IMG/VR virus record: IMGVR_UViG_3300048772_000190
Span: 1-26,026 of that record
Strand: one strand, 5' to 3'
Length of the DNA: 26,026 bases
From: a virus
Position 1 is the first letter of the stretch. Every line of letters starts with the position of its first letter. A program made the position numbers and the translations under genes. The notes below the pieces were generated by a model that saw only the letters and a list, made by a program, of their open reading frames with translations, searched no databases and was not told the origin of the DNA. Shown in pieces: positions 2,124-24,514 of the stretch.

Positions 2124-3317
2124 TTATGCATATTTAGCTATTATCTCATGAAATTTTTTGATTCTCTTTTCCCAACCATAATCTTTTGCTATTCTTTTTG
2201 CTGCCATTGCTCCCTTTTCTTTAACTTCATCTTGATGAGTATAACAATGTCTAAGATATTTAACTAGTTGATTGTAATCTGGCATTGCCCATTGACCACA
2301 GTCTTCTTTATAAATATTTTTAGTAAAATCTTCAGCATCAATTAACTTATAATCAAGAATATAACTATCTTTCTTATCTAAAAACATTTCTGGTCCTGAC
2401 CAATTTGTACAAATTGCTGGAATTCCTGTAGCCATTGCTTCCATCGGAGGATATCCCCAACCTTCACCCTTTGTCGGGAATACAAAACAATCAATTTTCT
2501 TAAAGAAATTATCAATAAGTTCTGCATGCGATATTGGTCCAACTTGAACCTCAATCCTTTTATCCTTAACCATAAAATGATATTGATTGTGGGATGTTTT
2601 ACAAATGAGTTTTACATTTTCTTTATTAGGAAATGCTTCCTGAAAGGCTTTAACTAACATGTCTGTACCCTTTCTAGTACTCAAGAAACCCATATGACCA
2701 AATGTAAATACCTTATTATTCCTTTCTAGTGGGTAAAATTTGGTCATATCGATGCCTAATTCTGCTATTTCTATTGGTATTTTAACCCTGCTATCCTCAA
2801 ACATCTTCTTATTTTGTTTGCAGGGAACAATTAATGCATCAAATTTATTTAATCTAGGCACCCAACTTAGTGGCACTAATGTTGTTTCAAACATTAATAC
2901 TGCAATATTTTTTTTAAATGGTGATGTTAGGAATTTTTCAGATGGTTGTTCCCACCATACACATAAACCATTTTCTTGTATTTCTGTATTTAATGCTTTT
3001 GAAGATACTCTATCAGCAATGCCATTGGAATTTCCTAATAAAGCTATTTGATAATCAGGACTATATTTTAAGAAATTATATCCAAGATTACCCCAACCTG
3101 ATGTTGCATCGATATTAGTACTAAATACAAAATATTTTTCTTTTTTAAATAAATTAGGCTCATAATCCTTTCCTGAAAAATCTATAAATTCTATATGCAC
3201 TTTTCTACTAAGCTTCATTGCTAAAGAAAATGGAACTTCTATGACTTTATTTATTTCATAGAAGATATTATCCAAAAAGATACTTGATGCTTTTGTTCCC
3301 GTGATTTTGATTAACAT
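2124..3317 (-). CDS. GT4-type glycosyltransferase with N-terminal virion-like domain
   Basis: A 397-residue GT-B-fold glycosyltransferase that moves a sugar from a nucleotide-sugar donor. The nucleotide-binding half is clear: 'FGHMGFLSTRKG' at about residues 206-217, 'CFVFPTKGEGWGYPPMEAMA' at 277-296 with the E-x7-E pair (E285, E293), then NWSGPE. Residues 60-200 form the acceptor-binding half. The first ~50 residues look different: 'KITGTKASSIFLDNIFYEIN' followed by VIEVPFSLAMKL resembles the small 'x-GT-x-YxDGxxYExGxxxEVPxxLA' domain often seen in phage structural proteins. It lies between the capsid and adaptor genes, where a sugar enzyme is not normally found, and follows a structured intergenic RNA. 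Likely a virion-directed glycosyltransferase; donor and acceptor are unknown. Confidence 0.88.
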   Translation of the reverse strand: MLIKITGTKASSIFLDNIFYEINKVIEVPFSLAMKLSRKVHIEFIDFSGKDYEPNLFKKEKYFVFSTNIDATSGWGNLGYNFLKYSPDYQIALLGNSNGIADRVSSKALNTEIQENGLCVWWEQPSEKFLTSPFKKNIAVLMFETTLVPLSWVPRLNKFDALIVPCKQNKKMFEDSRVKIPIEIAELGIDMTKFYPLERNNKVFTFGHMGFLSTRKGTDMLVKAFQEAFPNKENVKLICKTSHNQYHFMVKDKRIEVQVGPISHAELIDNFFKKIDCFVFPTKGEGWGYPPMEAMATGIPAICTNWSGPEMFLDKKDSYILDYKLIDAEDFTKNIYKEDCGQWAMPDYNQLVKYLRHCYTHQDEVKEKGAMAAKRIAKDYGWEKRIKKFHEIIAKYA

Positions 3318-4551: not shown

Positions 4552-6216
4552 CTATTCTTTAATCGAAGCCAAGTCTTCTTTATAAACTTGCTTAAATGAT
4601 TTTTTCTCTGCACTTTGACTTTTTCTAATTGTCGTTTCTGACATTTCAGATGCTGTCAATGCAAATCTATTACCTTCTTTTGTTGTCATATATGGAACAC
4701 CCATAGATACTGATTTTTTAAATCCTGGAGTTGCCATCATTTCTTTAATAACAGCTTGGATATCTGGATCTGATTTAATTTGATCTACTATGTGCTTTTG
4801 GAATCCTGGTATTGTTACTCCGCTAGCATTCATTTTTTCTGATATCTTGTCAATTGCTTGTGCCATTGCTAATACTAATTGATCAATTGTTGTTTCTGAT
4901 TTTGTAACAGTATCTGATGTTTCTTCCTTTCCTTCCATTTTATTCATAATTGCTTGCATTTTCTTCATGGAATTCTTTATGGCATATTCACTTGTTGTGG
5001 TATCATCTTTCTTATCATCAGCCTTTTCTTTTGTGCTTGTTTCATCTGTTTCTGCTTTCTCTTTTGTTTCTTCAGCTTTTTCTTTAGTCTCAGTTTCAGC
5101 TTTCTCCTTGGTTTCTTCTATCGCTTTTTCATTTGTTTCTGAATCTGTTTTTTTATCATCAGTTGCTTTTTGCATAGATTCCATAAACTTTGTCATTGTA
5201 GCAAATCCATCAGCAACCATTGACTTAAATTTTTCATCTTCAGTTGTAGCTTTTTCTTTAGTCTCTTCTGCTTTCTTAGTATCTTCCTTTGTATCTTCAG
5301 CTTTCTCTTTTGTTTCTGTTTCCTCAGCTTTGGCTGTTTCTTTTGTATTTTCAGCCTTTTCTTTGGTTTCTGTTTCTTCTGCTTTAGATGTTTCTTTAGT
5401 ATCCTCAGCTTTTTCCTTAGTTTCTGTTGTCTCTTCAGCCTTCTTTGTTTCTGTTGTTTCTTCAGTTGTCTCTGCTTTTTCAGCAGTTGTTTCTTTTGTA
5501 TTTTTTCTCATATCTTCAATTAAATTATTAATAATTGCTGGTTCGTTGACCTCTTTCCAGCTATCGGCAGGGATGGATTTTGCGAATGCTCGCATATAAT
5601 CCATATGCTGATTTTCAAATAAAAACTCTCCATAATATTTTTCTCTGTTCAAAATAACATCTTTTGCTGTTATTTCTTGTTTTCTACTTTTAGCAAATAA
5701 CCATGCGTCATAATTTGCAGGCCTTTGCGTAATTGATACTTCATCGAGCAAAACATTATAAAAAGTTTTTACCATTTGCCCTGTTTTCTCTGACATTTCC
5801 TTCACTGCCTTTTTAACTCGACCTCCGACAGATAATCCCATCTTTGCTCCTTCTTTTAATGCATTATATAAAATTGGCCCTGCTGGATGATTTTTGTCTA
5901 CTCTTGCTTTAATCCATAACTGATTTCGTTCATCCATCCAAGCTTTAAATACAGATCCAAGTATTGCGCTATCTTCTTTTGAATGTTCTAATCTTAATGG
6001 CACAGTTTTTTCATTAATGATGTTTGCCATATCGGACATTGCATTAACAGACATTCGTTCCATATCATGATCCACATTAGCAGTTGAAGCAATTCCAGTT
6101 ATAACCATATCTTCTCCTTCCATACTTTGAAGAGCTTTTTCTATATAGAAAATAAAAGGAAAATCTCCATTTGCTTCAGCAACTATTATTTTATCATTTT
6201 GTTTATCTAAAGACAT
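4552..6216 (-). CDS. Prohead maturation protease fused to acidic scaffold-like repeat region
   Basis: The protease domain occupies roughly the first 180 residues and has the hallmarks of the phage prohead serine protease families related to herpesvirus assemblin (S78-like): a His in VPLRLEHS, the nucleophile Ser in MGLSVGGRV and the 'DEVSITQRPANYDAW' segment. A long low-complexity region follows (about residues 240-420), made of Lys/Glu/Thr repeats such as TKEKAEETKE, then a more ordinary C-terminal segment (about 420-550). The highly charged part probably acts as an internal scaffold that is digested on maturation, as the delta domain does in HK97. The ATG at 6216 is chosen; an in-frame TTG at 6252 would add 12 residues inside the preceding endonuclease gene. 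The gene overlaps that endonuclease by 10 bases. Confidence 0.87.
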   Translation of the reverse strand: MSLDKQNDKIIVAEANGDFPFIFYIEKALQSMEGEDMVITGIASTANVDHDMERMSVNAMSDMANIINEKTVPLRLEHSKEDSAILGSVFKAWMDERNQLWIKARVDKNHPAGPILYNALKEGAKMGLSVGGRVKKAVKEMSEKTGQMVKTFYNVLLDEVSITQRPANYDAWLFAKSRKQEITAKDVILNREKYYGEFLFENQHMDYMRAFAKSIPADSWKEVNEPAIINNLIEDMRKNTKETTAEKAETTEETTETKKAEETTETKEKAEDTKETSKAEETETKEKAENTKETAKAEETETKEKAEDTKEDTKKAEETKEKATTEDEKFKSMVADGFATMTKFMESMQKATDDKKTDSETNEKAIEETKEKAETETKEKAEETKEKAETDETSTKEKADDKKDDTTTSEYAIKNSMKKMQAIMNKMEGKEETSDTVTKSETTIDQLVLAMAQAIDKISEKMNASGVTIPGFQKHIVDQIKSDPDIQAVIKEMMATPGFKKSVSMGVPYMTTKEGNRFALTASEMSETTIRKSQSAEKKSFKQVYKEDLASIKE

Positions 6217-6740
6217 AGTTGTATTTTTTTGCTCATAATATCTTTTTCCCAAAATCTCAAAACTGTATATCCCAATTCTGCCAATCTTGTATTTTGTCTC
6301 CCATCTCTTTCTTGTGCTCCTTCTCTATTGTGCCAATAATTTCCATCAACTTGTAAAACAATGTTTTTTGAAGGAATATAGAAATCTACAACATAAGAAT
6401 CTATTCTGTATTGAAACTCATATTTAATTCCAAGAGCAGTGAGCAATTCTTTCATTTTCAATTCAGGTCGTGTATCAAACCACTTTATATTTTTTCTCTG
6501 CATTATATTCTTCAACATTGTTTCTCTGTTTATTTCATTTTGCCACACCGAGTGTATCTTTCCTTTGTTTGCAACTCCAAGTGTATTTCCTTTTTTAAAT
6601 CCATTTAATGTAATTTTTGCCTTTTCTGACATTTTTTCTCTTTGAGTGTTAGAAGGTGTATATCCTTTTTTAAATCCATTTCTTGAATTTGGATTTTTTC
6701 CTCTTCTTTCAACTATTGTAAATAAGTTTTTATTTTCCAT
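6207..6740 (-). CDS. NUMOD3 / VSR-like (EDxHD-type) homing endonuclease, second copy
   Basis: A 177-residue homing endonuclease paralogous to the one at 53-751. The N-terminal ~75 residues carry NUMOD3-like motifs (GFKKGYTPSNTQREKMSEKA, GFKKGNTLGV). The nuclease domain has TRPELKMKELL, VVDFYI, QVDGNYWHNREGAQERD and RFWEKDI, which matches VSR/DUF559-like EDxHD nucleases. Here the acidic residue before the DGxYWH motif is Gln rather than Glu as in the first copy, which may or may not matter because the catalytic Asp is kept. It lies between the acidic protein and the protease gene, overlapping both by about 10 bases. It probably spreads by cutting endonuclease-free relatives. Confidence 0.88.
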   Translation of the reverse strand: MENKNLFTIVERRGKNPNSRNGFKKGYTPSNTQREKMSEKAKITLNGFKKGNTLGVANKGKIHSVWQNEINRETMLKNIMQRKNIKWFDTRPELKMKELLTALGIKYEFQYRIDSYVVDFYIPSKNIVLQVDGNYWHNREGAQERDGRQNTRLAELGYTVLRFWEKDIMSKKIQLCL

Positions 6741-7167: not shown

Positions 7168-7301
7168 ATATTTAGTGTATTTCTACATATATATTATAAG
7201 TATATCTTTAATATTTTTACCTTTTCATTTATTTTCTCAAAACTACCTCAGTTAAATTCTTCATTGTCTCAGTATTTTGAGTAAATGAATTTTTATCCAA
7301 T
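7168..7301 (-). other. AT-rich intergenic region with possible hairpin
   Basis: This 134-base gap lies between the coiled-coil membrane protein and the acidic protein. It contains an imperfect inverted repeat (CTCAAAA-C-TAC near 7237 with GTATTTTGAG near 7272, one bulge) and, nearer the acidic-protein start, a TATAAT-like string without a convincing -35 box. A 23-codon ORF is listed separately. The hairpin lacks a U-tail, so it is not called a terminator. Confidence 0.35.
7229..7300 (-). CDS. Possible 23-residue peptide with TTG start
   Basis: One base after the stop of the coiled-coil membrane protein, a TTG opens a short frame ending in TTEVVLRK-like sequence (DKNSFTQNTETMKNLTEVVL, then RK and stop). 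The composition looks protein-like and the spacing matches the tight packing elsewhere. There is no Shine-Dalgarno sequence and the length is near chance, and the same bases form part of the hairpin, so this is a weak call. Confidence 0.22.
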   Translation of the reverse strand: MDKNSFTQNTETMKNLTEVVLRK

Positions 7302-7559
7302 TTATTTTTTAAATATTTTAAATAATTCAAAAATTATTCCTATCAAAATTGAAATAAAAACTAATACTCCCATAAGCCATTTTCCTAAAGTTGAAGCTGT
7401 CGTAAATACATCAAGTATCGGTTTTGTCGCTTTTCTTGTTTCTTCGTCATTACGAATTAAAATATCAATTTTTCTATTCAAAGAAGCAAAATCATGTTTG
7501 TTATCTTCAATATGTTTCTGCAATTCGCTATCTTGTTTTTTATCTATTAAATTTTCCAT
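7302..7559 (-). CDS. Coiled-coil protein with single C-terminal membrane segment (holin/haemolysin XhlA-like)
   Basis: A short protein of 85 residues. Residues 1-48 are charged and predicted coiled coil (DKKQDSELQKHIEDNKHDF, 'LNRKIDILIRNDEETRKATK'). Residues 58-80 are a strong transmembrane helix (LGKWLMGVLVFISILIGIIF) followed by a Lys-rich tail. That layout matches phage XhlA/holin-like accessory proteins and other single-pass phage membrane proteins that help lysis. It starts one base after the stop of the fibre gene and is probably coupled to it. No endolysin is visible in the window, so a lysis role is not proven; anchoring of the secreted-type fibre next door is another possibility. Confidence 0.65.
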   Translation of the reverse strand: MENLIDKKQDSELQKHIEDNKHDFASLNRKIDILIRNDEETRKATKPILDVFTTASTLGKWLMGVLVFISILIGIIFELFKIFKK

Positions 7560-7560
7560 T

Positions 7561-10500
7561 TTAATAATATTCTATTACTTCTATAAATCCTGAACCTCCA
7601 TTTCCTCCTGCACCTGTTGTGCCACTTGTATTACCATTTCCTCCCGTGCCAACTGTATAAGAATAAGATGTTGCTGGAGAAGTAATATAAGCATCAATGT
7701 AACCGCCAGATCCTCCACCACTTCCAGCATTATTACCACCGCTTGTATTTAAACCACCAGCACCACCTCCTCCTGAACCAGAATTTGGAGTGGCAGAAGT
7801 TCCAATTCCATAAGTAGCCGCATTTGAACCTCCTGCACCAGCACCACCAAATGGAGTTGAACCACCCATACCTCCTGTTTCTCCAGCAGTAGTATTTGCA
7901 GTATAACTTCCTCCTTGTCCAGCTCCACCTCCAAGTGCAACACCTATTGCACCTGCTCCAATAGTTGCAGAACTAGTCGCACTGGCTCTATTTGAAACTG
8001 CTGCCCAACCTGCACCTGCTGTTAAAAAACTTGTGCCAAAAGTTGAAGTTGCTCCACTTGTTCCAACACCATTCGCACTTCCACCTCCTGCTCCACCTCC
8101 AACCATTTTTACTTCAATATATGCAACTCCAGCAGGAGTTGTATATGTTCCTGAGCCAGATGTGAAAATTTGAATAGTCATTCTCTGTTTTGTCCAAATG
8201 GTAGATGTCCCTGTTGATGTAAGTATTTGTCTTGTTGTGCCTGTAGCATTTGTAGAATCATAAAGTCCACCAGTAAGGTGTTCATTTCCCTGAACTGTTT
8301 CTCCATAATCAGTTAATGTTCCATTGACTGTAAGCTGTTGAGAAGATGTAGCAGTATTGAATTGACCGTAGATAAGAGATTTTGTTTTGTCACCTACATA
8401 ACTTCCTGTATCGTAATCATTTATAAAGAGTTCGTTATTTGTAGAAGTTGCATATTGACCTGCATCATATCCCAAAGCTACTGATGAATTACCACTTAAG
8501 TTAAATAAAGCATTCATACCATTTGCAGTGTTGTAAGAACCTGTGGTGTTGGATAAGAGAGCATAATAACCATTTGCAGTGTTGTAAGAACCTGCGGTGT
8601 TGGAGTAGAGAGCAAAATCGCCATTTGCGGTGTTGTAACCACCTGCGGTGTTGGAGACGAGAGCATAATAACCATTTGCAGTGTTGTAAGAACCTGCGGT
8701 GTTGGAGTAGAGAGCAAAATCGCCATTTGCGGTGTTGTAACCACCTGTGGTGTTGAAGACGAGAGCATAATAACCATTTGCAGTGTTGTTGGAACCTGTC
8801 ATCGTCAGATTTCCTGCTCTGCCAAAGAAATAATTATTGAGTGTTGTGCTTGCTTCTGCTATTACATAACCGTTGTATTGATAACTTCCACCTGTATTAA
8901 CTCCAAGAGTATTGACATTTGAAAGAGATTGATTGTTGAGATTCACGTTTGTAGTTGCACCTGTATAAGGAACATACAAAGTTGAAGAAGCAGACGGAAT
9001 GAATGGCAATGAAGTGCTGGCAGAAACTAAAAGATACAAAGACGAGCTGGCCGATGGAATATAAGCAAGAGATGTTGAAGCAGATAATGTCAAAAATGTA
9101 TTATTGACATAAGTCGTGCTTGCATAGGTGGAAGAAGCATAACTGTAAGTCATATAGCTCAAAAGTGTTCCCGAAGTTGCAAATAATGAAGACGATGCTA
9201 TTGGAATATAAGCCAAACTCGTGCTTGCAGAATTGAGAAGATAAAGAGAACTTGAAGCATAAGGAATGAAAGCGGTGGAAGTTGCTGTGATGTAGTTTGA
9301 CGGATTGCTATTTAAATAATAAAGAGATGAACTAGCGAACGGAATAAATGCAGTTGAAGTGGCAGTGATGTAGCCGGCTGGGTTTGAATTCAAATAATAC
9401 AAAGATGAAGAAGCAATAGGAATGTATGCCAAAGATGTTGAAGCAGAATTCAAAAGATATAGAGATGAGGATGCTATCGGAACATATGCAAGTGAAGTAG
9501 ATGCACTATTTAAAAGAAATAATGATGAACTGGCTAAAGGCAAGTAAGTTGAAGTCGCATAAGCAAAAGTCATATAATTTGACAAGTTTACAGAACTTGA
9601 TGTCGCAATAACATTTCCATTTGCATCAGTTCCTAAAATTGAATTCTTAATATTTGGAAGTATTAAAGCTAAAGTTGTCGTGGTTGCTATCGTAGTGGAA
9701 GCATTCAAATACAATATTTGGTCAGCTAAACTGACATCCATTACTCCATAAATAATTGAATGTGTCTTATCATTTTGATAACTTCCTGTTTGATTATTAT
9801 TTATGAATAATTCATTTGATGTGTTTGTCGCATAATATCCAGCATAAGAACCTAAAGCTATATTGTATGCTCCCGTACTATGATATAAAGAACTATCACC
9901 AACCGATGTATTATAATATCCATTTCCAGATTCCAAAGAATTTGAACCAACAGTAGTATTGTGTGAACCAGTTATAACCAAATTTTCAGCATTATATCCG
10001 ACAGAGGTATTGTTACTTCCAGTTTGTATTGCGTCTAGATTTGAATATCCGATTGCTGTATTTTGGCTTGCACTACGACTATCATTCATATTATACGCAC
10101 CAATAGAGACATTTTGCGAACCAGTAGTGTTATCGTTAAGAGTTTCCATACCGTAAGCTGTATTTTCTGAACCTGTCGTATTGTTGCTCAAAGAATACAA
10201 ACCTATTCCAAAATTCATTTGTCCTGTCATTGTTTTGTTTCCAGCTCCGTTTGAAAAATAGTTTTGGTTGGAAGTATCAAAAATTCCAATATAATAACCA
10301 TTTAAAATATATGGGATATATTCACTAGTTGCAGTTGCAATAGTTAAATAAGTAGAACTTGCATAGTCATAAGTTGGATAGTTCAATAAACTTGAAGTTG
10401 TTGAACTTATATATCCTGCTGGATTTGAAGCGAGATAGTAAAGTGAAGAAGATGCTAGAGGAATATATGAAAGTGAAGTTGAAGCTGAAAGTGGAATGAA

Positions 10501-10890
10501 TGTTGCACTCACCCAAGTTGTCGAAGCGTAAGTTGATGAAGCGTAACTAAATGTCATGTAACTGGAAGTTGCATTTGCAATTGAAAGATATGTTGATGAT
10601 GCATCTATTAAAGACAAGTAAGTATTAGCAGCAGTTGTTGTACTTAGTTTGGATAATAATTGGTTCCATAAATCTGTTTGATTAGATAATGTTCCTGTTA
10701 TATTTCCCCACATCAAAGTTCCAGAACTACAAGCTGTACTTGAAGCTATATAAAGTCCATTACTGCCAGACATCAAACAATATCCACTTCCTGGAGCAAT
10801 AGGAACTGTTGTTTGTGGATTGCTAGCAATTCCAAAGTTTGGAAGGAATAAGAGTGTTGCCAATATTAATGATGTAATTATTTTTTTCAT
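7561..10890 (-). CDS. Large repeat fibre/adhesin with signal peptide and glycine-rich tip
   Basis: An 1109-residue fibre-like protein. Residues 1-24 form a textbook signal peptide: MKKIITSLIL, a hydrophobic core, and a likely cut near GIAS. A tail-fibre-like segment follows (SGTLMWGNITGTLSNQTDLW). Residues ~100-210 and ~430-640 consist of ASST/ASTS-rich repeats (STSLAYIPIASSSLY). Two blocks of trimeric-adhesin-head-like (Hep/Hag, YadA-type) repeats lie at ~220-395 and ~690-850, each closed by NELFIN...SLIYG-like modules, which suggests internal duplication. YVPYTGATTNVNLNNQSLSN is a common tail-fibre phrase. Residues ~904-1109 are a glycine-rich domain opening with FTSGSGTYTTPAGV and ending GGNGGSGFIEVIEYY, typical of receptor-binding tips. 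The role is host or surface attachment. A signal peptide on a virion fibre is unusual; a secreted adhesin made by the infected cell is the alternative. Confidence 0.85.
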   Translation of the reverse strand: MKKIITSLILATLLFLPNFGIASNPQTTVPIAPGSGYCLMSGSNGLYIASSTACSSGTLMWGNITGTLSNQTDLWNQLLSKLSTTTAANTYLSLIDASSTYLSIANATSSYMTFSYASSTYASTTWVSATFIPLSASTSLSYIPLASSSLYYLASNPAGYISSTTSSLLNYPTYDYASSTYLTIATATSEYIPYILNGYYIGIFDTSNQNYFSNGAGNKTMTGQMNFGIGLYSLSNNTTGSENTAYGMETLNDNTTGSQNVSIGAYNMNDSRSASQNTAIGYSNLDAIQTGSNNTSVGYNAENLVITGSHNTTVGSNSLESGNGYYNTSVGDSSLYHSTGAYNIALGSYAGYYATNTSNELFINNNQTGSYQNDKTHSIIYGVMDVSLADQILYLNASTTIATTTTLALILPNIKNSILGTDANGNVIATSSSVNLSNYMTFAYATSTYLPLASSSLFLLNSASTSLAYVPIASSSLYLLNSASTSLAYIPIASSSLYYLNSNPAGYITATSTAFIPFASSSLYYLNSNPSNYITATSTAFIPYASSSLYLLNSASTSLAYIPIASSSLFATSGTLLSYMTYSYASSTYASTTYVNNTFLTLSASTSLAYIPSASSSLYLLVSASTSLPFIPSASSTLYVPYTGATTNVNLNNQSLSNVNTLGVNTGGSYQYNGYVIAEASTTLNNYFFGRAGNLTMTGSNNTANGYYALVFNTTGGYNTANGDFALYSNTAGSYNTANGYYALVSNTAGGYNTANGDFALYSNTAGSYNTANGYYALLSNTTGSYNTANGMNALFNLSGNSSVALGYDAGQYATSTNNELFINDYDTGSYVGDKTKSLIYGQFNTATSSQQLTVNGTLTDYGETVQGNEHLTGGLYDSTNATGTTRQILTSTGTSTIWTKQRMTIQIFTSGSGTYTTPAGVAYIEVKMVGGGAGGGSANGVGTSGATSTFGTSFLTAGAGWAAVSNRASATSSATIGAGAIGVALGGGAGQGGSYTANTTAGETGGMGGSTPFGGAGAGGSNAATYGIGTSATPNSGSGGGGAGGLNTSGGNNAGSGGGSGGYIDAYITSPATSYSYTVGTGGNGNTSGTTGAGGNGGSGFIEVIEYY
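8512..8800 (-). repeat. 51-bp tandem repeat (6 copies) inside the fibre gene
   Basis: The string atttgc(a/g)gtgttgtaa recurs at 8521, 8572, 8623, 8674, 8725 and 8776, an exact period of 51 bases (17 codons: TANGYYAL.SNT.G.YN). Alternating variants (GYYAL and GDFALYS) give a 102-base higher-order unit with nearly identical copies, which indicates recent duplication by slippage or unequal recombination. It encodes part of the second Hep/Hag block. Confidence 0.93.
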
Positions 10891-10893
10891 ATA

Positions 10894-11154
10894 TTAAGCT
10901 GTTACATAAATCATGGCTGTTAAAGTACTTTGTGGTGCTGGTGTTGTGGTTGCAGTGAATGTCAATCCATTCCAAGTCCATCTATCATTTTCTTCGTAGG
11001 CACCATTATCTATAATTAAATAAGTTGGTTTTTTATTATCTTGAAAAGTAAAATCTTGATTAGTTCCATCAACCACTCCAGAAGTAATTGACAATGGTTG
11101 AAAGCCACTACCAACTCCACCCTTTGATTTAATTTGTATTCTATTGCTACCCAT
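10894..11154 (-). CDS. Small beta-rich protein, probably virion-associated
   Basis: An 86-residue protein of beta-strand-like character. It opens MGSNRIQIKSKGG and contains 'LSITSGVVDGTNQDFTFQDN', TYLIIDNGAYEEND and RWTWNGLTFTATTTP, a pattern seen in small phage fibre or decoration proteins that carry a value-like beta module. It has one of the few visible Shine-Dalgarno sequences here (AAGGA about 10 bases ahead of the ATG). It lies 3 bases ahead of the fibre gene and 4 bases after the next small protein, which suggests they form one structural unit. Chaperone or base of the fibre are possible roles; no known family is claimed. Confidence 0.7.
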   Translation of the reverse strand: MGSNRIQIKSKGGVGSGFQPLSITSGVVDGTNQDFTFQDNKKPTYLIIDNGAYEENDRWTWNGLTFTATTTPAPQSTLTAMIYVTA

Positions 11155-11158
11155 AATT

Positions 11159-11449
11159 TTAAGATCCTTTCCACCAAGAATAAACTATCACATCTCCTTG
11201 TGTTCCGACCACAACAACATTCTTGACATCTGCAATTACATCTAAGTTATATATTTCATCTGCATGTATGGGTATTCCAATTACAGGACTAAGTGATACT
11301 GAATTGCCTCCAACAATTATATCTCCTGTATTATTTACATCTGCTCTCAAATCTAATCTGACACAAGGAATAGATCCACTCAAGTTCTGAGGAACTCCAG
11401 TTTCTTGTATAATGCATCTTCCACAATTATTACCACCGTTATTGTACAT
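11159..11449 (-). CDS. Small Cys-containing beta-rich protein of unknown function
   Basis: A 96-residue protein starting MYNNGGNNCGRCIIQETG with a CxxC pair and a third Cys at about residue 29. The remainder alternates hydrophobic and polar residues as in beta strands (VRLDLRADVNNTGDIIVGG, NLDVIADVKNVVVVGTQG). Together with the neighbouring 86-residue protein it lies between portal and fibre genes, so a decoration, minor head or fibre-attachment role is plausible. I do not recognise a family. Confidence 0.65.
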   Translation of the reverse strand: MYNNGGNNCGRCIIQETGVPQNLSGSIPCVRLDLRADVNNTGDIIVGGNSVSLSPVIGIPIHADEIYNLDVIADVKNVVVVGTQGDVIVYSWWKGS

Positions 11450-11453
11450 TGTT

Positions 11454-13871
11454 TTAATTTTTTACAAAAACACAATATTTAATTCCTCTTTCATCTTTTA
11501 AGGTAACTATTCCTCCATATGATTCAGGTTTATTTTTTGAAAAATTCTTTAAAGACTTTAAGGCTTGATTATAATCATATGTATAAAATAATTCAGATAA
11601 ATTATATTTAACTATGTTTGATTCACTCCAATTTTTAAATATGTTTTTTATATTAATTCTAGCCTTATCGTCTTTAATAAGTTCTCCAAACATAACAGGA
11701 CTATCTTTAAATTCATTTTCAGAATCTATTATAGAATCAGGTTGTTTTATATTAGAAGATTTATTTATATTTTTATTCTCAATGAGTGAATTAAATAATT
11801 TTAAAATCTCAGGAGCACCTTCAAAATATTTTTGAATTGACGAACTTGAATCTTTCCATCTATTTATATCTCCCTTAAATTGATAATCAAATCCAAATAT
11901 TCTTTTATTTGGAGTTACTATGTATTGGTTTACTCTTCTATCTCCAAGAATTAATTCCTTTTCAATTAACCATAAATTTGCCAAATCTTTTATGGCTTGA
12001 TGATAACTATCAGGATCTCTATTCATATCTTTTAATACTAATTGACTATCTAAATTATAACCATATATATAATCACTAACTAAATAATAGTCAAACTTTC
12101 TTGAACCTAGACCTCTAGCTTTCCACTTCTCTGAATCATACTCTGATGTCATGGTAATATATCTTTCAAATTCACATTTAACAGATTCTGATGGTAATAA
12201 GTTTATGCAATCATTATAATTTACCTTTCTTATAGTGGGAACATTGAGTCCCAACTCACTTAATTTGTTTGATAATTCTATTTCAAGATTTTGACTCATC
12301 ATATTTACTGCAACAGGAGGTTTTATTACAATTCCGTTTTGAGATATTATATTGAAACAGATAAATGGTTGTGAGTATCCTCTATCATCCATCCATGTCT
12401 TATAACCATCAATGGTCATAATAGATTTTTCTATTCTTTGTTCATTATAGTTTTCTTCGTTGCCAACGACAGCATCTTCTTCAGTCTTGCCTTTATCAAC
12501 AACTTCAGGAGTCATTTTTACATAGCCACTTCCTGTCATCAACATTGGTTCATTTGCCCATTCATCAAATGGTAACAACCCCATCTTGTTTCTAACTTCA
12601 TTAATAGTCATGGTTCCGTTCTTTAAGGCTGTATCTGTCACCCTTGAGTTCACTTCTGGATCAGTTCTATCGTCAACAAGCCAATCAAATTCTAGGTCTG
12701 TAAAACCAAAATCCTTCCAAATGACTTCTTGATTAAAGACTTCTTTAATGAGATGCAATATTGAACCATATCCTTTTTCTTCAGAAAGACCTACTTGTGT
12801 TTGTGATGTTGCTTTATTCAAATCATCCACTAATCCAATATCCTGTCCCGACAATCCATATGATGCAGCAGCAAGTCTAGCTAGGAATTCTGTATATTCC
12901 ATGAACTGCATATCATTATTATTCTGATCTTTTATTTTAATTACTTCAACTTCTCCGCCGGCTGTCATTGCGGGTCTATGGAAAGAACCATTCATTTCAG
13001 AATAAATATATTCTCTTGCAGCTTCAAGATCGCCTTGTGTCATTTGACCTTTGAAATTCAAAAGTGTTGGAGGAAATGATCCTTCTTCAAAATAAGTGCC
13101 ATTATAATTATCAGCATTTAAAAGATTTGACACAACAGATAAGATACCTTCAATTGGAGATAAACCATAACCAAATGTTTCCATTGCGCCTTGTGGATGC
13201 ATATGAAAGTATAGAAAATCTTTCTTTGGCCAAGCAGCTACTATCTCTCCAGATTCAGGACCTCCATACATAGAATTATCCATTACTTGAATATATGACA
13301 CAGGTAATTCTATTCTTCCTGTTTTTGTCGATAATGGTATAACTGCATCTTGATTTCCCTTTTCATCAAAGACAGGTCTAACCGTTGCGGCATCTACGAA
13401 ATGTAATTCTGCAAGATCTCCATTAGGGTATCTAGTCTTTTCAATAGATACTGAGTCAAGTACAAGAAGATCTTCAAGCATCTTATCTAGAAGAGTTCTA
13501 AATGTTTCATCATTATGATTTGGATGTTTAAATATCTCCTCAAGCTTTTTTACTTGTTCTGGGTCTGGTTCCTTTAAAGGATCAATGCTCTTGATTTGCC
13601 ATTTAGTTTTGGTTATCTTTTCTTTAAGAACAGTAATACAAATTCTAATGATTGGTACTGATACAGCTATTCTTCTAAGGGTGTCAAAAGAAACACGTCC
13701 AGGTTTGGACATACCCTTTTCAATCATCTTAGCATTTCTTTGTTTTCTATTGTCAAAAGACAAAGAACGTATTGATGTTGTTTTTTCACTTTTATTAAAA
13801 TAAGGAAATGCAGGAAAAGTTACTTTCTTTTCTGTTGCAACCTTTTTTGGAGTTTTTGTTTTTGATGCCAT
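11454..13871 (-). CDS. Portal protein fused to a C-terminal kinase-like domain
   Basis: An 805-residue protein. Residues ~55-455 are a standard phage portal: VPIIRICITVLKEKITKTKW, a central wing region, 'FEEGSFPPTLLNFKGQMTQG', 'FMEYTEFLARLAAASYGLSG', and a clip/stem ending in GTMTINEVRNKMGLLPFDEW. After an acidic linker (456-480), residues ~485-700 resemble a HipA/PI3-4-kinase-like fold: GIVIKPP with K517, 'NLEIELSNKLSELGLNVP' with E530, a hinge-like YYLVSDYIYGYNL, catalytic-loop-like LILGDRRVNQYIV (D644) and DFG-like IFGFDYQF (D662). The metal-binding Asn is at +4 (N648), with Gln at the usual +5 position, so activity is uncertain. A further ~100 residues of unknown fold follow. Portals form a 12-mer at the packaging vertex, so the extra domain would be present in 12 copies, probably facing the capsid interior. 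Confidence 0.9.
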   Translation of the reverse strand: MASKTKTPKKVATEKKVTFPAFPYFNKSEKTTSIRSLSFDNRKQRNAKMIEKGMSKPGRVSFDTLRRIAVSVPIIRICITVLKEKITKTKWQIKSIDPLKEPDPEQVKKLEEIFKHPNHNDETFRTLLDKMLEDLLVLDSVSIEKTRYPNGDLAELHFVDAATVRPVFDEKGNQDAVIPLSTKTGRIELPVSYIQVMDNSMYGGPESGEIVAAWPKKDFLYFHMHPQGAMETFGYGLSPIEGILSVVSNLLNADNYNGTYFEEGSFPPTLLNFKGQMTQGDLEAAREYIYSEMNGSFHRPAMTAGGEVEVIKIKDQNNNDMQFMEYTEFLARLAAASYGLSGQDIGLVDDLNKATSQTQVGLSEEKGYGSILHLIKEVFNQEVIWKDFGFTDLEFDWLVDDRTDPEVNSRVTDTALKNGTMTINEVRNKMGLLPFDEWANEPMLMTGSGYVKMTPEVVDKGKTEEDAVVGNEENYNEQRIEKSIMTIDGYKTWMDDRGYSQPFICFNIISQNGIVIKPPVAVNMMSQNLEIELSNKLSELGLNVPTIRKVNYNDCINLLPSESVKCEFERYITMTSEYDSEKWKARGLGSRKFDYYLVSDYIYGYNLDSQLVLKDMNRDPDSYHQAIKDLANLWLIEKELILGDRRVNQYIVTPNKRIFGFDYQFKGDINRWKDSSSSIQKYFEGAPEILKLFNSLIENKNINKSSNIKQPDSIIDSENEFKDSPVMFGELIKDDKARINIKNIFKNWSESNIVKYNLSELFYTYDYNQALKSLKNFSKNKPESYGGIVTLKDERGIKYCVFVKN

Positions 13872-15384: not shown

Positions 15385-16089
15385 TTATTTATTATCTTCC
15401 ATCGCTTGCTTTGTAGCTTCACGATCTTTTTTAATTATTTCATCGACCTCTTTGTCTAATATTGAATATGGTCTTCCTGCATTGTCTAAATATATTCCAT
15501 ATCCCTTTTCTGCCATTCTTGCTTCTTTAACCTTATCAATCTTAGCGACCAACATTTCAGAACCTTGTCTAAATCTAATAGCCATATTTTGTAATGCCTT
15601 CTTAGAATTCTTTTCTTTAAGTAAGCCGTCACCTATATCTCGTAATAATGTTGATAGAATATCAGCAAGCATTTCAAAATCAAATCTAATTTGTGATTTG
15701 AATATTCTTGATTCTTTAGTATGTGCACCTTTGCTTGCAAATAATTCCATTAGAAATGAACTATGCTCTCTGCCCTGTTCAAATAAATATTGTGCTAATC
15801 TAGAATCTTTTTGCTCTTTGGTTAGATTCGAATCTAAAAAGACTTTGCCCAATGCTTTGTCTGTGATGCCTTCTCTAACAATCATTATCTCTTTATTATT
15901 GATTGTTGCCTTTTCATTTGGCATTGTTCCTAATTTTTTAAGTTTTGTATATGTTGGATCATCTTTAGCTATTTTAGGGCGTTTAGTATCTGTAGTCTTT
16001 GGAAGTTTAACTTCACCGCCAAGAATAGTATCAATTGCTTTTGTAAGTGCCTTACCACATCCATTCAAAGTTTTGATTTTTTTTGTCAT
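15385..16089 (-). CDS. Unknown helical protein
   Basis: A 234-residue basic protein, flexible at the N-terminus (about 1-60, Lys/Thr/Pro-rich) and helical from ~85 on (TKEQKDSRLAQYLFEQGREH, SQIRFDFEMLADILSTLLRD, LVAKIDKVKEARMAEKGYG). It sits one base or so from its neighbours on both sides and is therefore probably part of the same transcript as the portal. It may be a packaging or minor head component; no family is claimed. Confidence 0.68.
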   Translation of the reverse strand: MTKKIKTLNGCGKALTKAIDTILGGEVKLPKTTDTKRPKIAKDDPTYTKLKKLGTMPNEKATINNKEIMIVREGITDKALGKVFLDSNLTKEQKDSRLAQYLFEQGREHSSFLMELFASKGAHTKESRIFKSQIRFDFEMLADILSTLLRDIGDGLLKEKNSKKALQNMAIRFRQGSEMLVAKIDKVKEARMAEKGYGIYLDNAGRPYSILDKEVDEIIKKDREATKQAMEDNK

Positions 16090-17033
16090 TATTTTATTCC
16101 AGGATTAAACCCCCATTTTTTGATAAAAGCTTCTTTATCTGTATTAAACATTTCATCTGATTCTAGATATGTCCAATCAATATCAAATGAATATATTGGA
16201 ATTCTTTGAGATGTAATAACACCATAGCCATTTCTATACATTCTTTGCCAGATATCTTTTTCTGTAAATCTTTTTGTTTTGATATCACAATCTATTTTAA
16301 GCATATCAGCGCCGGCTCTTGGCATTCCAATAAAATCTATATTCATTGCTTTGTCTTCGTTTGGAAATGAAGCAATATATTCATCAAAAGATTCTGGTTG
16401 TACTTTTTCTTTAACGTCAAAGCCTGACACAATCATAACATCTCCGATGTTTAATCTATTTGCCATCAAATCTATTGAGTGTTCCTGAAGAACAATCCAT
16501 GGGTTAACAACCATAATAAATCTAGCATTCACATCTTCAATTGCTATTGATAATCCTTCATGAATATAATCTGAGTATGATGATCCTTGTGGAACTGCTG
16601 CGCCAATTGAATTACCTGCAAAAGAATTCACACCAATATAGTTTAATATATCTGATGGCAATCTTTTTTCTTCTGCTACAAGTATAATATATAACTCATG
16701 CGATTGAGAAGTAACACGATTGATAACAGTTTTAAGAACATCCAAATCTAATTGATTGTCTTTAATATCTGACCAATATCCGTAAAGAGGAATAATGACA
16801 GCAATCTTGCTTTTAGATACGGTTGATATAAAATCATCAAGAGTTCTTTTAAGCATTGATGAATCTGCATCAACAGTTTTTTTAAGAGGCTTTGCTTCTA
16901 TAATTCCAAATTCTTTATCTGTTGATTTTTTTACTATTTGTATTGTTTCATCAACAATAATCTTTTCCTCATCTTTAATCTTATGCTTGTTCTGATGTTG
17001 CGATAACTTCTTCTGTACTTTCTGTTTTTTCAT
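16089..17033 (-). CDS. GT-A-like glycosyltransferase relative (DxD not obvious)
   Basis: A 314-residue protein. After a Lys-rich N-terminal extension (~1-70), residues 77-200 look like the nucleotide-binding part of a GT2-type fold: KIAVIIPLYGYWSD, ELYIILVAEEKRLPS, a helix, then RFIMVVNPWIVLQEHSIDL at the place where a DxD metal motif is expected. The canonical acidic motif is not present at that place, so it may be inactive or use another site. The C-terminal third is helix/strand mix (TEKDIWQRMYRNGYGVITSQ; IPIYSFDIDWTYLES), similar to other GT-A acceptor-side segments. It starts inside the preceding 66-residue gene by 53 bases. It belongs to the sugar cluster 19165-16089. Confidence 0.6.
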   Translation of the reverse strand: MKKQKVQKKLSQHQNKHKIKDEEKIIVDETIQIVKKSTDKEFGIIEAKPLKKTVDADSSMLKRTLDDFISTVSKSKIAVIIPLYGYWSDIKDNQLDLDVLKTVINRVTSQSHELYIILVAEEKRLPSDILNYIGVNSFAGNSIGAAVPQGSSYSDYIHEGLSIAIEDVNARFIMVVNPWIVLQEHSIDLMANRLNIGDVMIVSGFDVKEKVQPESFDEYIASFPNEDKAMNIDFIGMPRAGADMLKIDCDIKTKRFTEKDIWQRMYRNGYGVITSQRIPIYSFDIDWTYLESDEMFNTDKEAFIKKWGFNPGIK

Positions 17034-17181
17034 TTGTTAATTTTTTACCAATCTTATAAAGTAATTGTGCAAGACTTCGACCAGATCCTAATTCAACATT
17101 TTCCATTCCTTGCTTTGATTCTGCTACTGTCCATTGGTTATCTTTCTTGTATATTGTTAAAACGATATTTGTATAATCCAT
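16981..17181 (-). CDS. Small unknown protein in the glycosyltransferase cluster
   Basis: A 66-residue protein with beta-strand-like start (MDYTNIVLTIYKKDNQWTVA) and an acidic/Thr tail. The ATG at 17181 lies four bases after the stop of the preceding glycosyltransferase; a longer start at 17277 would overlap that gene by ~90 bases. Its end overlaps the next gene by 53 bases. Function unknown. Confidence 0.5.
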   Translation of the reverse strand: MDYTNIVLTIYKKDNQWTVAESKQGMENVELGSGRSLAQLLYKIGKKLTNEKTESTEEVIATSEQA

Positions 17182-17185
17182 TTTG

Positions 17186-17974
17186 TTATAAATTAAAAGA
17201 TGTTTTATAAATTTCTTTTCCTTGCTGTCCTCCCCATTTTCTAATGTAATATTTTCTATTGATTTCAAATTGTGCACTTGGCACTATCTTTGTTCCTAAT
17301 GCTTCATTTTGAGTTCTACTGCCATAATGATAAAACAAAGCTTTTGGTGAATGTATTCTTCTGTATCCTGCTATCTTAATCCTATAAACTGAATCTGCAT
17401 CTTCAAAGTATGCTGGCTTAAAGTTCTCATCAAACATTCCTATCTTCTCATAATACTCTCTACCGACCATAAAGAGAGCATAATCAGTACATTCAGATTC
17501 TACTACACTCGTACTGTTATCTACATAATCTATAATTTCTCTTGGCTTGTCTAGAATAAGTTTGTGCAAGCCAGAGATAAGTAAAATCTTTTCTTGATTG
17601 TATTTAGCTACTTCAAATCTATCCACAATGGCATCTATGCATTTGTGATTTAAAATAGTATCATTGTTGAGTATCAAACAGAAATCATAACCATTGTCAA
17701 AAGCATATTTCATTCCATAGTTCCAACTCTTTGCTACACACCATCTTTCCTCATTCCTTTGATATATAAATTTGTTTCTTTTAGGATCTTTAATCATATC
17801 AATCATCTCTGAAGCGTATAGCATCTCTTTACACTTCTCTTGAGTATTATCAGTTGAAGCATTATCAATAATCATTACATCAACAATGTTCTTTTCACTA
17901 GCAATTGAAAGAATGCACTGTTCTGTGAATTGATTCCATAAGTTTATTACTGGTATGACTGCTAATATTTTCAT
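17186..17974 (-). CDS. GT2-family glycosyltransferase
   Basis: A 262-residue GT-A-fold enzyme. Diagnostic parts are ILAVIPVINLW at the N-terminus, the nucleotide-binding VMIIDNASTDNTQEK (residues 33-47), a Lys/Asn/Trp helix ('NEERWCVAKSWNYGMKYAFD'), the metal-binding CLILNNDTIL (N104-D105) and the acceptor-side AYFEDADSVYRIKIAGYR. These are standard for GT2 rhamnosyl- or galactosyltransferase-like enzymes that act on surface glycans; the sugar cannot be read from sequence. It starts in ATGA overlap with the HNH-AP2 gene before it, so it was presumably coupled to the glycosyltransferase further upstream before that element inserted. Confidence 0.93.
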   Translation of the reverse strand: MKILAVIPVINLWNQFTEQCILSIASEKNIVDVMIIDNASTDNTQEKCKEMLYASEMIDMIKDPKRNKFIYQRNEERWCVAKSWNYGMKYAFDNGYDFCLILNNDTILNHKCIDAIVDRFEVAKYNQEKILLISGLHKLILDKPREIIDYVDNSTSVVESECTDYALFMVGREYYEKIGMFDENFKPAYFEDADSVYRIKIAGYRRIHSPKALFYHYGSRTQNEALGTKIVPSAQFEINRKYYIRKWGGQQGKEIYKTSFNL

Positions 17975-18519
17975 ATGTTTGGAGCAAATTCTTTGCCATA
18001 TACTCTAATACGATTTTCAACAAAACATTTCCTTGCTTCTTCTACAGTTTCAAAAGAACCAAGATACTTAGGATATTTATTAACTTTCATTATTGCTTGG
18101 TATGGTCTTGATGAACAATTTCTAGCATTAAATCTAACTCCCATTGGCAATGATGGATCTTTTTTCTTATGAGGTTTATAACAATTTAAATTATTCTGTG
18201 TTTGAGTAACAAATCTTAAATTAGTTTTTCTATTGTCAAGTCCATTTCCATTGATATGGTCTAATTGCTGTTTATATTTTGCTTTCATAATAACTCTGTG
18301 CATAAGATTTCCATTACCAACTGCATATAGATTTCCAATATAACCTCTTGAATCGTGATTATTCATAATCCTCCATGATTGGTCTTCTATTAGTTTTATA
18401 TCTTCTCTGTCTATGATAGCAAATTCTTCTGAATTTGACAATTCAATGTATGCAATATCTCCATCAATTCTTGATATTTTTGCTCCTTTATAATTGTTGT
18501 TATTTTTTCCTGATTGCAT
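17971..18519 (-). CDS. HNH-AP2 homing endonuclease
   Basis: A 182-residue homing endonuclease. An HNH_3-type core (LMHRVIM about residue 72-78, then LDHINGNGLDNRKTNLRFVT at ~86-105) is followed by an AP2-like DNA-binding domain: MGVRFNARNCSSRPYQAIMK, YLGSFETVEEARKCF and RVYGKEFAPNI (~126-182). This order is classic for mobile HNH genes of phages. The start chosen at 18519 lies one base after the upstream stop; a longer start would overlap that gene. It splits the glycosyltransferase cluster between two GT2-type genes, ending in an ATGA overlap. Confidence 0.92.
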   Translation of the reverse strand: MQSGKNNNNYKGAKISRIDGDIAYIELSNSEEFAIIDREDIKLIEDQSWRIMNNHDSRGYIGNLYAVGNGNLMHRVIMKAKYKQQLDHINGNGLDNRKTNLRFVTQTQNNLNCYKPHKKKDPSLPMGVRFNARNCSSRPYQAIMKVNKYPKYLGSFETVEEARKCFVENRIRVYGKEFAPNI

Positions 18520-18520
18520 T

Positions 18521-19165
18521 TTATTTGTTCCATCTTCCTGGTTGATAATAATTAAATAATACATACAAATCAGGTCTGTACACTATTGAGTCTTTGTATT
18601 CTTTAACAATCTTTTCAGCCATCTCTCCATCACCACAATAACTATTTCTGAATTGAATTGTTCTGAACACCTTTCCTTTATAAATTATTTGTTCAGGACC
18701 AATATATCCAACTTTCATATTCTCTGGACTAGCTATAAGAGTTGATGTTCCGTGTGGAGCAGCCAAATGTCCATCATACATATATGGTGGTGGTGTTTTG
18801 TCTCCTCTCTTCATAGATATAACTATAATGTCATCATCTTGTTTTCTTATTTCTTCAATCACATTTGATTCATAGGCATCATCATCATTGAGTATCATGT
18901 AGTAGTCCTCATCATTTATCTCTTGTATATTTATGAAATAGTTTATCTTTGCATAACATTTATCCCATTCCTTTGGTATGTCTGAAATATAAATAGGTTT
19001 TATCCAGCTGTTACCATCTTGTGAAGACTTCTTAAATGTTTCATGCCCATCATTGCATACAGGATGCCATATTACATTTAATGGAAAAAGCATATCAATG
19101 AGAGTATCTTTTAGATGACTCCTACTAAATGCTGTTATAATGTGTATTGTTTTATTTGATTGCAT
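18521..19165 (-). CDS. GT-A-type glycosyltransferase-like protein with DDD motif
   Basis: A 214-residue protein with the shape of a small GT-A enzyme: TIHIITAFSRSHLKD at the N-terminus, a Trp-rich middle, then DYYMILNDDDAYESNVIEEI carrying a DxD-like DDD (about residues 94-96), and DDIIVISMKRGDK. The C-terminal GDGEMAEKIVKEYKDSI resembles the acceptor end of related proteins. The preferred ATG (19165) overlaps the previous gene by 14 bases; ATG 19186 is also possible. It belongs with the two following glycosyltransferases; donor sugar unknown. Confidence 0.78.
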   Translation of the reverse strand: MQSNKTIHIITAFSRSHLKDTLIDMLFPLNVIWHPVCNDGHETFKKSSQDGNSWIKPIYISDIPKEWDKCYAKINYFINIQEINDEDYYMILNDDDAYESNVIEEIRKQDDDIIVISMKRGDKTPPPYMYDGHLAAPHGTSTLIASPENMKVGYIGPEQIIYKGKVFRTIQFRNSYCGDGEMAEKIVKEYKDSIVYRPDLYVLFNYYQPGRWNK

Positions 19166-19691
19166 AAAAGTATATATCAAGTCCATTATCTTCTAAATAT
19201 AAATCTTTGAATGGCTTTTTACTATTGATTGCATCTATGAATTCTCCAAACTTTCCTTTGCACATATTGTTATAGTAATCAGGACTTGTTCCCCATAAGT
19301 TTCCATCTCCTGTAGTTCTTTTTGTTCCATGTTCTGGTCTAGTTGATCCTGCTGCTGAGATTGCCATGAGTCCTCCATCTTTAAGCATGGCATACATATT
19401 CATTAAAGATTGAAACCAGAACTCATCGTGTTCAAGCATTTCACCAGAAACTATAGTATCAACAAGATTCAAGCCATTCTCTGCTCTATTTAATTTATCT
19501 GCTGCTGAAACAATGTCCACATTTGGTCCTGCATGAATATCAATACCCTTGTAGTCTGAATACTCAAACAGATCTTTCAGTGTTCCATTAATATCAAGGG
19601 AACCAAAATCAAGAGCAGAAACACTCTTGAAGTTCTCTGGGAACTTTGCTTTCACCTTTTCAAAAAATTGTCTTTGGGCTGGATGTGCCAT
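19152..19691 (-). CDS. Class I SAM-dependent methyltransferase
   Basis: A 179-residue protein whose first part contains a Rossmann-type SAM site: VSALDFGSLDINGTLKDLF (motif I, about residues 24-42), YKGIDIHAGPNVDIV (acidic motif II, D51) and IVSGEMLEHDEFW (about 80-92). The motif I is the divergent 'LDxGSxDxNG' kind found in phage and glycan-cluster methyltransferases rather than DNA methylases. It heads the sugar cluster right after a small unknown gene that follows the large terminase. It may methylate a sugar on a glycan; substrate unproven. Confidence 0.85.
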   Translation of the reverse strand: MAHPAQRQFFEKVKAKFPENFKSVSALDFGSLDINGTLKDLFEYSDYKGIDIHAGPNVDIVSAADKLNRAENGLNLVDTIVSGEMLEHDEFWFQSLMNMYAMLKDGGLMAISAAGSTRPEHGTKRTTGDGNLWGTSPDYYNNMCKGKFGEFIDAINSKKPFKDLYLEDNGLDIYFYAIK

Positions 19692-23941: not shown

Positions 23942-24514
23942 TTATTGTTGGTTATTTAATCTCTCATTGATAATTTCTATGTATTCAGGTTCTTTTTCTA
24001 TTAAGATGTAATTTCTATTGAGGTTCTTTTTGGAATGTATCCAAGTATGACATTTGCGACATACGAGAATAAGGTTTGAGTAAGCTGTTCTCTGTTTTCC
24101 TGTCCAAAAAGGTCTGATATGATGGACTTCAAAAGTTTGTTGAGTGTGGTTGAATTTTTCTCGGCATCTTTGGCAAGTTGCGTTATCTCTTTTCCATATA
24201 AACTTACAACATTGTTTCCATTTTTTCTGACCGCTAAACAACTGCTTTTCTGGGGTAACTCCGCCTTTCCAGTTAGGAGATTGTTTTCCAAACCAATAAT
24301 TATCTTTTCCCGTGTTCTTCCCCATATGAGCCAAACTCATTTTTTTCTTTGTTTCGGGAGATGCTAATTTCCCTATACGAAATTCGCTTAACTTTTTCTT
24401 GGTTTCTTCTGAGCGAGGTTTCCCCGTCCAATAGCTAAAGCCAGCCTCATTCCCGAAGTTTTCTTTCAGCTTTTTCTTATGTTCGTCAGTTCTGTTGTAT
24501 ATTCCTTTTGGCAT
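23942..24514 (-). CDS. NUMOD3-HNH homing endonuclease with methyltransferase-like tail
   Basis: This 190-residue homing endonuclease begins MPKGIYNRTDEHKKKL with NUMOD3-like repeats (GKPRSEETKKKLSE, GKLASPETKKKMS) and a HNH zinc domain: CQRC (114-117), EVHHIRPF (H131-H132), NLILVCRKCHTWIHS (147-161). The last ~26 residues do not belong to the HNH fold: NRNYILIEKEPEYIEI and INERL match the end of N6/N4 DNA methyltransferases, including NWICIEKDPSYVAI in the adjacent gene. This suggests insertion into, or recombination with, a methyltransferase gene. The gene lies 42 bases from the methyltransferase stop. Confidence 0.9.
   Translation of the reverse strand: MPKGIYNRTDEHKKKLKENFGNEAGFSYWTGKPRSEETKKKLSEFRIGKLASPETKKKMSLAHMGKNTGKDNYWFGKQSPNWKGGVTPEKQLFSGQKKWKQCCKFIWKRDNATCQRCREKFNHTQQTFEVHHIRPFWTGKQRTAYSNLILVCRKCHTWIHSKKNLNRNYILIEKEPEYIEIINERLNNQQ

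Follow-up and report, generated by a model that had tools for sequence, protein, structure and literature searches.

What is a domain with the look of a protein kinase doing at the end of a phage portal protein? The question is raised by an open reading frame (ORF) of 805 amino acids (aa) on the minus strand of a 26-kb IMG/VR virus record, the whole of which was analysed and is called the window below. A preliminary description had proposed that this ORF is a portal whose C-terminal domain has a kinase fold, and had quoted the residues GIVIKPP with K517, NLEIELSNKLSEL with E530, GLNVP, YYLVSDYIYGYNL, GDRRVNQYIV with D644 and FGFDYQF with D662, all of which are found where it had placed them. 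The ORF is composed of an HK97-type portal, a kinase-like domain (KLD) and a C-terminal module of about 80 aa:

11454..13871, minus strand: portal ORF with its fusion, 805 aa, assigned by Pfam and PHROG portal matches
12477..13871, minus strand: portal core, aa 1-465, from the comparison of the clade profile with 8q7d
12435..12476, minus strand: short linker, aa 466-479, with the conserved VGNEENYNEQ, from motif conservation in relatives
11769..12434, minus strand: KLD, aa 480-701, about 222 aa, from HMM boundaries, AF2 and Foldseek
11457..11699, minus strand: C-terminal module, aa 725-805, PVMFG...YGGI...KYCVFVKN, with an HMM of its own

The portal part is recognised by Phage_portal (PF04860) at aa 74-431 with an E value of 3.7e-26 (92.5 bits, curated cut-off 39.1) and by several PHROG portal families (E down to 2.5e-39). 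In a PDB profile search the clade profile matches the portal of Staphylococcus phage 812 (8q7d) with an E value of 8.3e-35 up to chain residue 499. For the approximately 326 residues past the Phage_portal match, nothing was found in Pfam at E<=10 and no significant match among PDB sequences, and the best PHROG value was 0.3. The range first assigned to the kinase-like part contains the KLD, but by extending to 11454 it also takes in the separate C-terminal module (aa ~725-805), which, in the form PVMFG...GGI...KYxVYVK, occurs on portals without a KLD as well. A motif resembling [VI]GGExxYxxQ is present in the linker of most relatives whether or not a KLD follows, while the rest of the linker is variable and acidic. 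A reading of this motif as a maturation-protease site is unsupported, since it is missing from the protease/scaffold-like and the major capsid proteins of the window. Among the other genes of the window, glycosyltransferase-like ones (2124-3317, 16089-19186) are scattered through the head module, lying between terminase and portal as well as beside the capsid gene; one of them, a GT2 at 17186-17974, is confirmed by Pfam (E 1.2e-10). Small ORFs at 53-751, 6207-6740, 17971-18564 and 23942-24514 resemble free-standing homing endonucleases and may be such.

Modelled alone by AF2 with 24 homologues, the KLD gave a confident structure that has two lobes and does not lack them (pLDDT 92.9, pTM 0.87); for aa 478-805 the values were 84.6 and 0.63, respectively. 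The N-terminal half of the model runs from a strand through the DDRG loop to a second strand, a third strand of the main sheet closed by K517, a helix carrying E530 and a further strand. Then follow a helical insert with EYDSEKW, the hinge strand, a helix, a long helix and the loop of D644, and finally two short strands, D662 and three helices. Compared with the PDB by Foldseek, the KLD alone had 88 matches at E<=0.001, and the 50 listed are all kinases or kinase-fold proteins, mostly with a probability of 1.00. Among them are PI3Kdelta (the best, 2.0e-4), PI4KIIalpha (2.9e-4), COQ8A, LIMK2, TTK, APH(3')-Ia and RNase L, whose match is presumably to its kinase-like part. The 50 PDB matches listed for the longer construct are again kinases or kinase-fold proteins throughout, and in BFVD this construct found mostly viral kinases and, in addition, one portal of an uncultivated phage, A0A6J5S481. 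By model and by Foldseek the domain thus has the two-lobed fold of the protein-kinase-like (PKL) superfamily, as had been proposed; since the TM-scores of the 50 listed matches are only 0.30-0.49, it is distant from all of them.

The residues at the kinase positions of the model were compared in a set of 24 non-redundant sequences, the relatives being 41-55 % identical to the window. The equivalents are named after PKA, in which K72 and E91 are the beta3 lysine and the alphaC glutamate (PMC1821047):

12366..12389, minus strand: loop DDRGYSQP, aa 495-502, where kinases have the glycine-rich loop, between strands 1 and 2 of the N-lobe sheet
12321..12323, minus strand: K517, beta3 lysine equivalent (PKA K72), last residue of its strand, invariant (24/24)
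12282..12284, minus strand: E530, alphaC glutamate equivalent (PKA E91), inside the next helix, invariant (24/24)
11940..11942, minus strand: D644, catalytic-loop aspartate equivalent (PKA D166), in (L/M/I)GDRR after the long helix, invariant (24/24)
11925..11927, minus strand: Q649 (+5) at the place of the metal-binding Asn (PKA N171), Gln in 23/24; N648 is +4
11886..11888, minus strand: D662, DFG aspartate equivalent (PKA D184), in D(Y/F)QF directly after the last strand, invariant (24/24)

The beta3 lysine, the alphaC glutamate, the catalytic aspartate and the aspartate of the DFG position therefore stand on the expected elements and in kinase order, as the preliminary description had read them. 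R645, R646, Q664 and F665 are equally invariant, and so are D496, G498, P502 and F503 in the loop region, in which a GxGxxG is absent from all 24 sequences. Judged from the alignment, this conserved set of kinase-type residues exceeds chance. The altered metal site that had been pointed out, with Asn at +4 and Gln at +5, is likewise confirmed: an Asn equivalent to N171 is not present, the position being Gln in all members except one with His (L026), preceded by Asp or Asn at 648. In the 24 sequences the His of the HxD motif is replaced by Leu, Met or Ile, with no His at the H158 position, and an equivalent of D220 was not assigned. The stretch from the catalytic Asp to the metal-ligand position has been described as a family-defining signature (Kannan et al., PMC1821047); in the KLD it is R-R-x-D/N.

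A significant sequence match of the KLD to any kinase family was not found, and since Pfam, PHROG and PDB sequences gave no match, the domain is, as far as searches and model indicate, an unlisted, divergent and unassigned protein-kinase-like family that matches no known one by sequence. The PDB sequence matches (HIV protease, a cytidylyltransferase) are at chance level. The top match among the members was the Bud32 model of NCBIfam (4/24, best E 0.0018, far under the curated cut-off of 188 bits), whose alignment spans the hinge-to-DFG region in two members; by hhalign, WaaY came first of 61 E. coli ORFs with a probability of only 8.6 %, in the region from the hinge to the catalytic loop. These weak matches lean towards small kinases of the Bud32/WaaY type. 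The likeness to HipA and PI3/PI4 kinases that had been put forward holds in part. PI3K and PI4KIIalpha do rank with the best structural matches. PF00454, however, had no sequence match to the KLD at E<=10, and the resemblance to PI3/PI4 kinases is structural only, with Ser/Thr and Tyr kinases, COQ8A and APH equally among the best matches of the model. HipA was rejected: HipA_C (PF07804) was not detected at E<=10 in the 24 members or in the window, HipA is absent among the 50 listed Foldseek matches, and it ranked 14th of the 61 E. coli ORFs by hhalign. With HipA the KLD has the kinase fold in common, but neither sequence nor structure matches it.

The position of the domain on the portal suggests where it would act. 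The crown of the phage 812 portal (residues 437-507) is situated within the capsid, where it forms a funnel that opens towards the centre of the head, and has been proposed to sense packaging (PMC12886913). Because the KLD begins just past the point that matches this crown, we infer that it is located in the head lumen in about twelve copies per virion. The best overall explanation, to which we give a probability of roughly 55 %, is a dodecameric portal whose crown bears a divergent kinase-fold domain serving as a head-packaged accessory enzyme. The KLD would be joined to the crown by a flexible linker and point into the head. It would bind a nucleotide-metal complex, with K517 on the phosphates and E530 holding K517, and with the metal held by D662 together with Q649 and/or residue 648; the group that it transfers would most likely be phosphate, D644 acting as the catalytic aspartate. 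The KLD is probably a phosphotransferase. It is under purifying selection: dN/dS was 0.08-0.28 in the three pairs with estimable dS, dS being saturated in the other pairs, and in 7/7 pairs computed dN was higher for the KLD than for the portal core.

Portals remain in the virion during ejection, and action in a new host would therefore need cleavage. A maturation protease would free the KLD, which would then act on host targets early in infection; the window codes for a putative protease/scaffold-like protein (4552-6252). A like course has been put forward for further enzymes joined to a portal or MuF protein: those of the 2H, PBECR, Nudix and ADP-ribosyltransferase kinds are taken to be packaged and then injected (PMC5512222; PMC9503650). 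Delivery of the KLD as a head-packaged accessory enzyme for host targets is held tentatively, at somewhat less than even odds. A chance coming closer to even is given to the wider proposal that the portal contains an unlisted kinase-like family with Gln at the metal-binding position, some twelve active copies of which in the head either modify host targets at infection or control head maturation; it would be the first kinase known from a portal.

The main rival to delivery is action in the procapsid. While ATP still enters, the KLD would phosphorylate luminal phage proteins, e.g. the product of 4552-6252 or the portal itself, and so set the time at which the scaffold leaves, DNA is packaged or the crown moves. 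(The ORF at 4552-6252, rich in Thr, Glu and Lys and without a Pfam match, was read from its sequence as a putative protease/scaffold-like protein.) The place of the crown inside the head and its proposed role as packaging sensor speak for this, as does the Thr-rich scaffold-like tail encoded in the same module, and the KLD has been retained with the portal for a long time. Most members of the portal clade keep it. Architectures comprise portal alone, portal with C-terminal module, portal with KLD, portal with KLD and C-terminal module (as in the window) and portal with KLD and a MuF-like region; the MuF-like regions (L028, L029, L034, L035) have E values of 4.5e-6 to 0.0015, all under the curated cut-off. 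Against a function in assembly stands a whole subclade of portals that are otherwise alike (identity to the window 53-61 %) and have no KLD. These five portals (L047, L049, L050, L053 and L055, found in the portal-core scan) form one nested group with a support of 93/95 in a tree of 30 cores whose root is not firmly placed, and because they group together the pattern fits a single loss of the KLD in one subclade. A separate kinase-like gene was not found in the flanks (<=5 kb) of KLD-less portals. An assembly-phase kinase is rather unlikely.

Asn-to-Gln at the metal site and the lost HxD His argue, in the sequences at hand, for altered chemistry or a pseudokinase. A pseudokinase would catalyse nothing and would bind a nucleotide, DNA or a protein partner, organising DNA around the portal or docking ejection proteins, for example; it is held plausible that the crown termini of the phage 812 portal touch DNA (PMC12886913). 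However, K, E, D and D do not vary in the 24 sequences, whose identity falls as low as 41 %, and pseudokinases need not keep them, which favours activity, and a pure binding module is improbable.

The second possibility under altered chemistry is another transfer reaction. SelO and SidJ are kinase folds used for transfer other than that of phosphate, such as AMPylation or glutamylation, and the unusual DDRG loop in place of GxGxxG and the catalytic loop RRx(D/N)Q could be taken in the same sense. SidJ has a kinase-like fold and yet polyglutamylates (PMC6858067). Neither of the two is among the 50 listed Foldseek matches, and such a reaction is regarded as quite improbable for the KLD.

That a frame or assembly error joined two genes, the objection which the preliminary description had itself raised, has practically no probability, since 28 IMG/VR contigs from many metagenomes carry the same fusion unbroken, with linkers that vary in length and sequence, as an artefact would not give, and nothing was found in its favour. 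These contigs came from searches in which the C-terminal part, and afterwards alignments of it, served as query, the survey of portals for the same extension that had been suggested; in all of them KLD and portal are one ORF, also in L005, whose 5' end is cut. The contig 3300046698_000320 shares 13.8 kb with the window at 99.9 % identity. Scans reaching close to moderate relatives found no standalone KLD in IMG/VR, every match being fused, no copies in GTDB genomes or GenBank phages and, with one member as query, none in plasmids. A0A6J5S481, the BFVD match mentioned above, is a 1201-aa 'Phage portal protein, HK97' of an uncultured Caudovirales (Foldseek 6.2e-4 to the KLD model, 7 % identity) and may be another, possibly independent portal-kinase fusion. 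Between the window (7220-12410) and L011 (IMGVR 3300037132_000109) identity is 99.5 % over a block of 5.2 kb but falls to about 70-80 % in the portal core and the upstream genes. The exact match starts at portal codon ~487, i.e. at the KLD start, for which reason the KLD and the downstream genes look recently exchanged, unless either contig is a chimeric assembly. The fibre-like ORF at 7561-10890 contains many near-identical repeats (SASTSLAYIPIASSSLY, NTAGSYNTANGYYAL), which lead to multiple overlapping matches between related contigs.

If active, the KLD would be a phosphotransferase at the single vertex that phage DNA passes both on packaging and on ejection, and it would offer a direct test of phosphorylation in head assembly or of kinases shipped to the host. 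It further indicates that portals can carry enzymes and still be annotated merely as 'portal', and that a divergent family of kinase folds whose metal site is unusual can escape Pfam, PHROGs and PDB sequence searches. A published portal-kinase fusion was not found in the open-licence papers searched. What would be new is the kinase-fold domain on a portal; fusions of enzymes to portals and polyvalent phage kinases were already known.

Compared with HK97-type portals (PF04860; phage 812, 8q7d), the core (aa 1-465) is significantly alike by Pfam and PDB profile, whereas the ORF of the window carries about 340 extra residues past the crown, i.e. KLD and small C-terminal module. With PKL families (PI3K, PI4KII, COQ8/UbiB, APH, ePK and, through weak sequence matches, Bud32/KdoK) the KLD shares the two-lobed fold and the order and place of K, E, D and D. 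It differs from them in the DDRG loop, the Gln for the metal Asn, the missing HxD His, the helical insert (EYDSEKW) before the hinge, the short C-lobe and the lack of membership at the sequence level. The kinase domains of phage polyvalent proteins, compared here by their description in the available parts of Iyer et al. 2017 (PMC5512222), have a reduced C-lobe and keep the typical active-site residues, together with a conserved Glu before strand 2, a Gln in the last N-lobe strand and a His-Asp insert. Like the KLD they are phage-encoded, possibly packaged in the virion and reduced in the C-lobe, but they reside in large polyvalent proteins with no portal fusion described there, while the KLD is on a portal. 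PBECR, 2H, Nudix and ADP-ribosyltransferase enzymes are likewise appended to a portal-vertex protein, portal or MuF, and in four relatives a MuF-like region follows the KLD; in contrast to the portal of the window, the portal fusions in the accessible parts of these papers (PMC5512222; PMC9503650) include no kinase fold.
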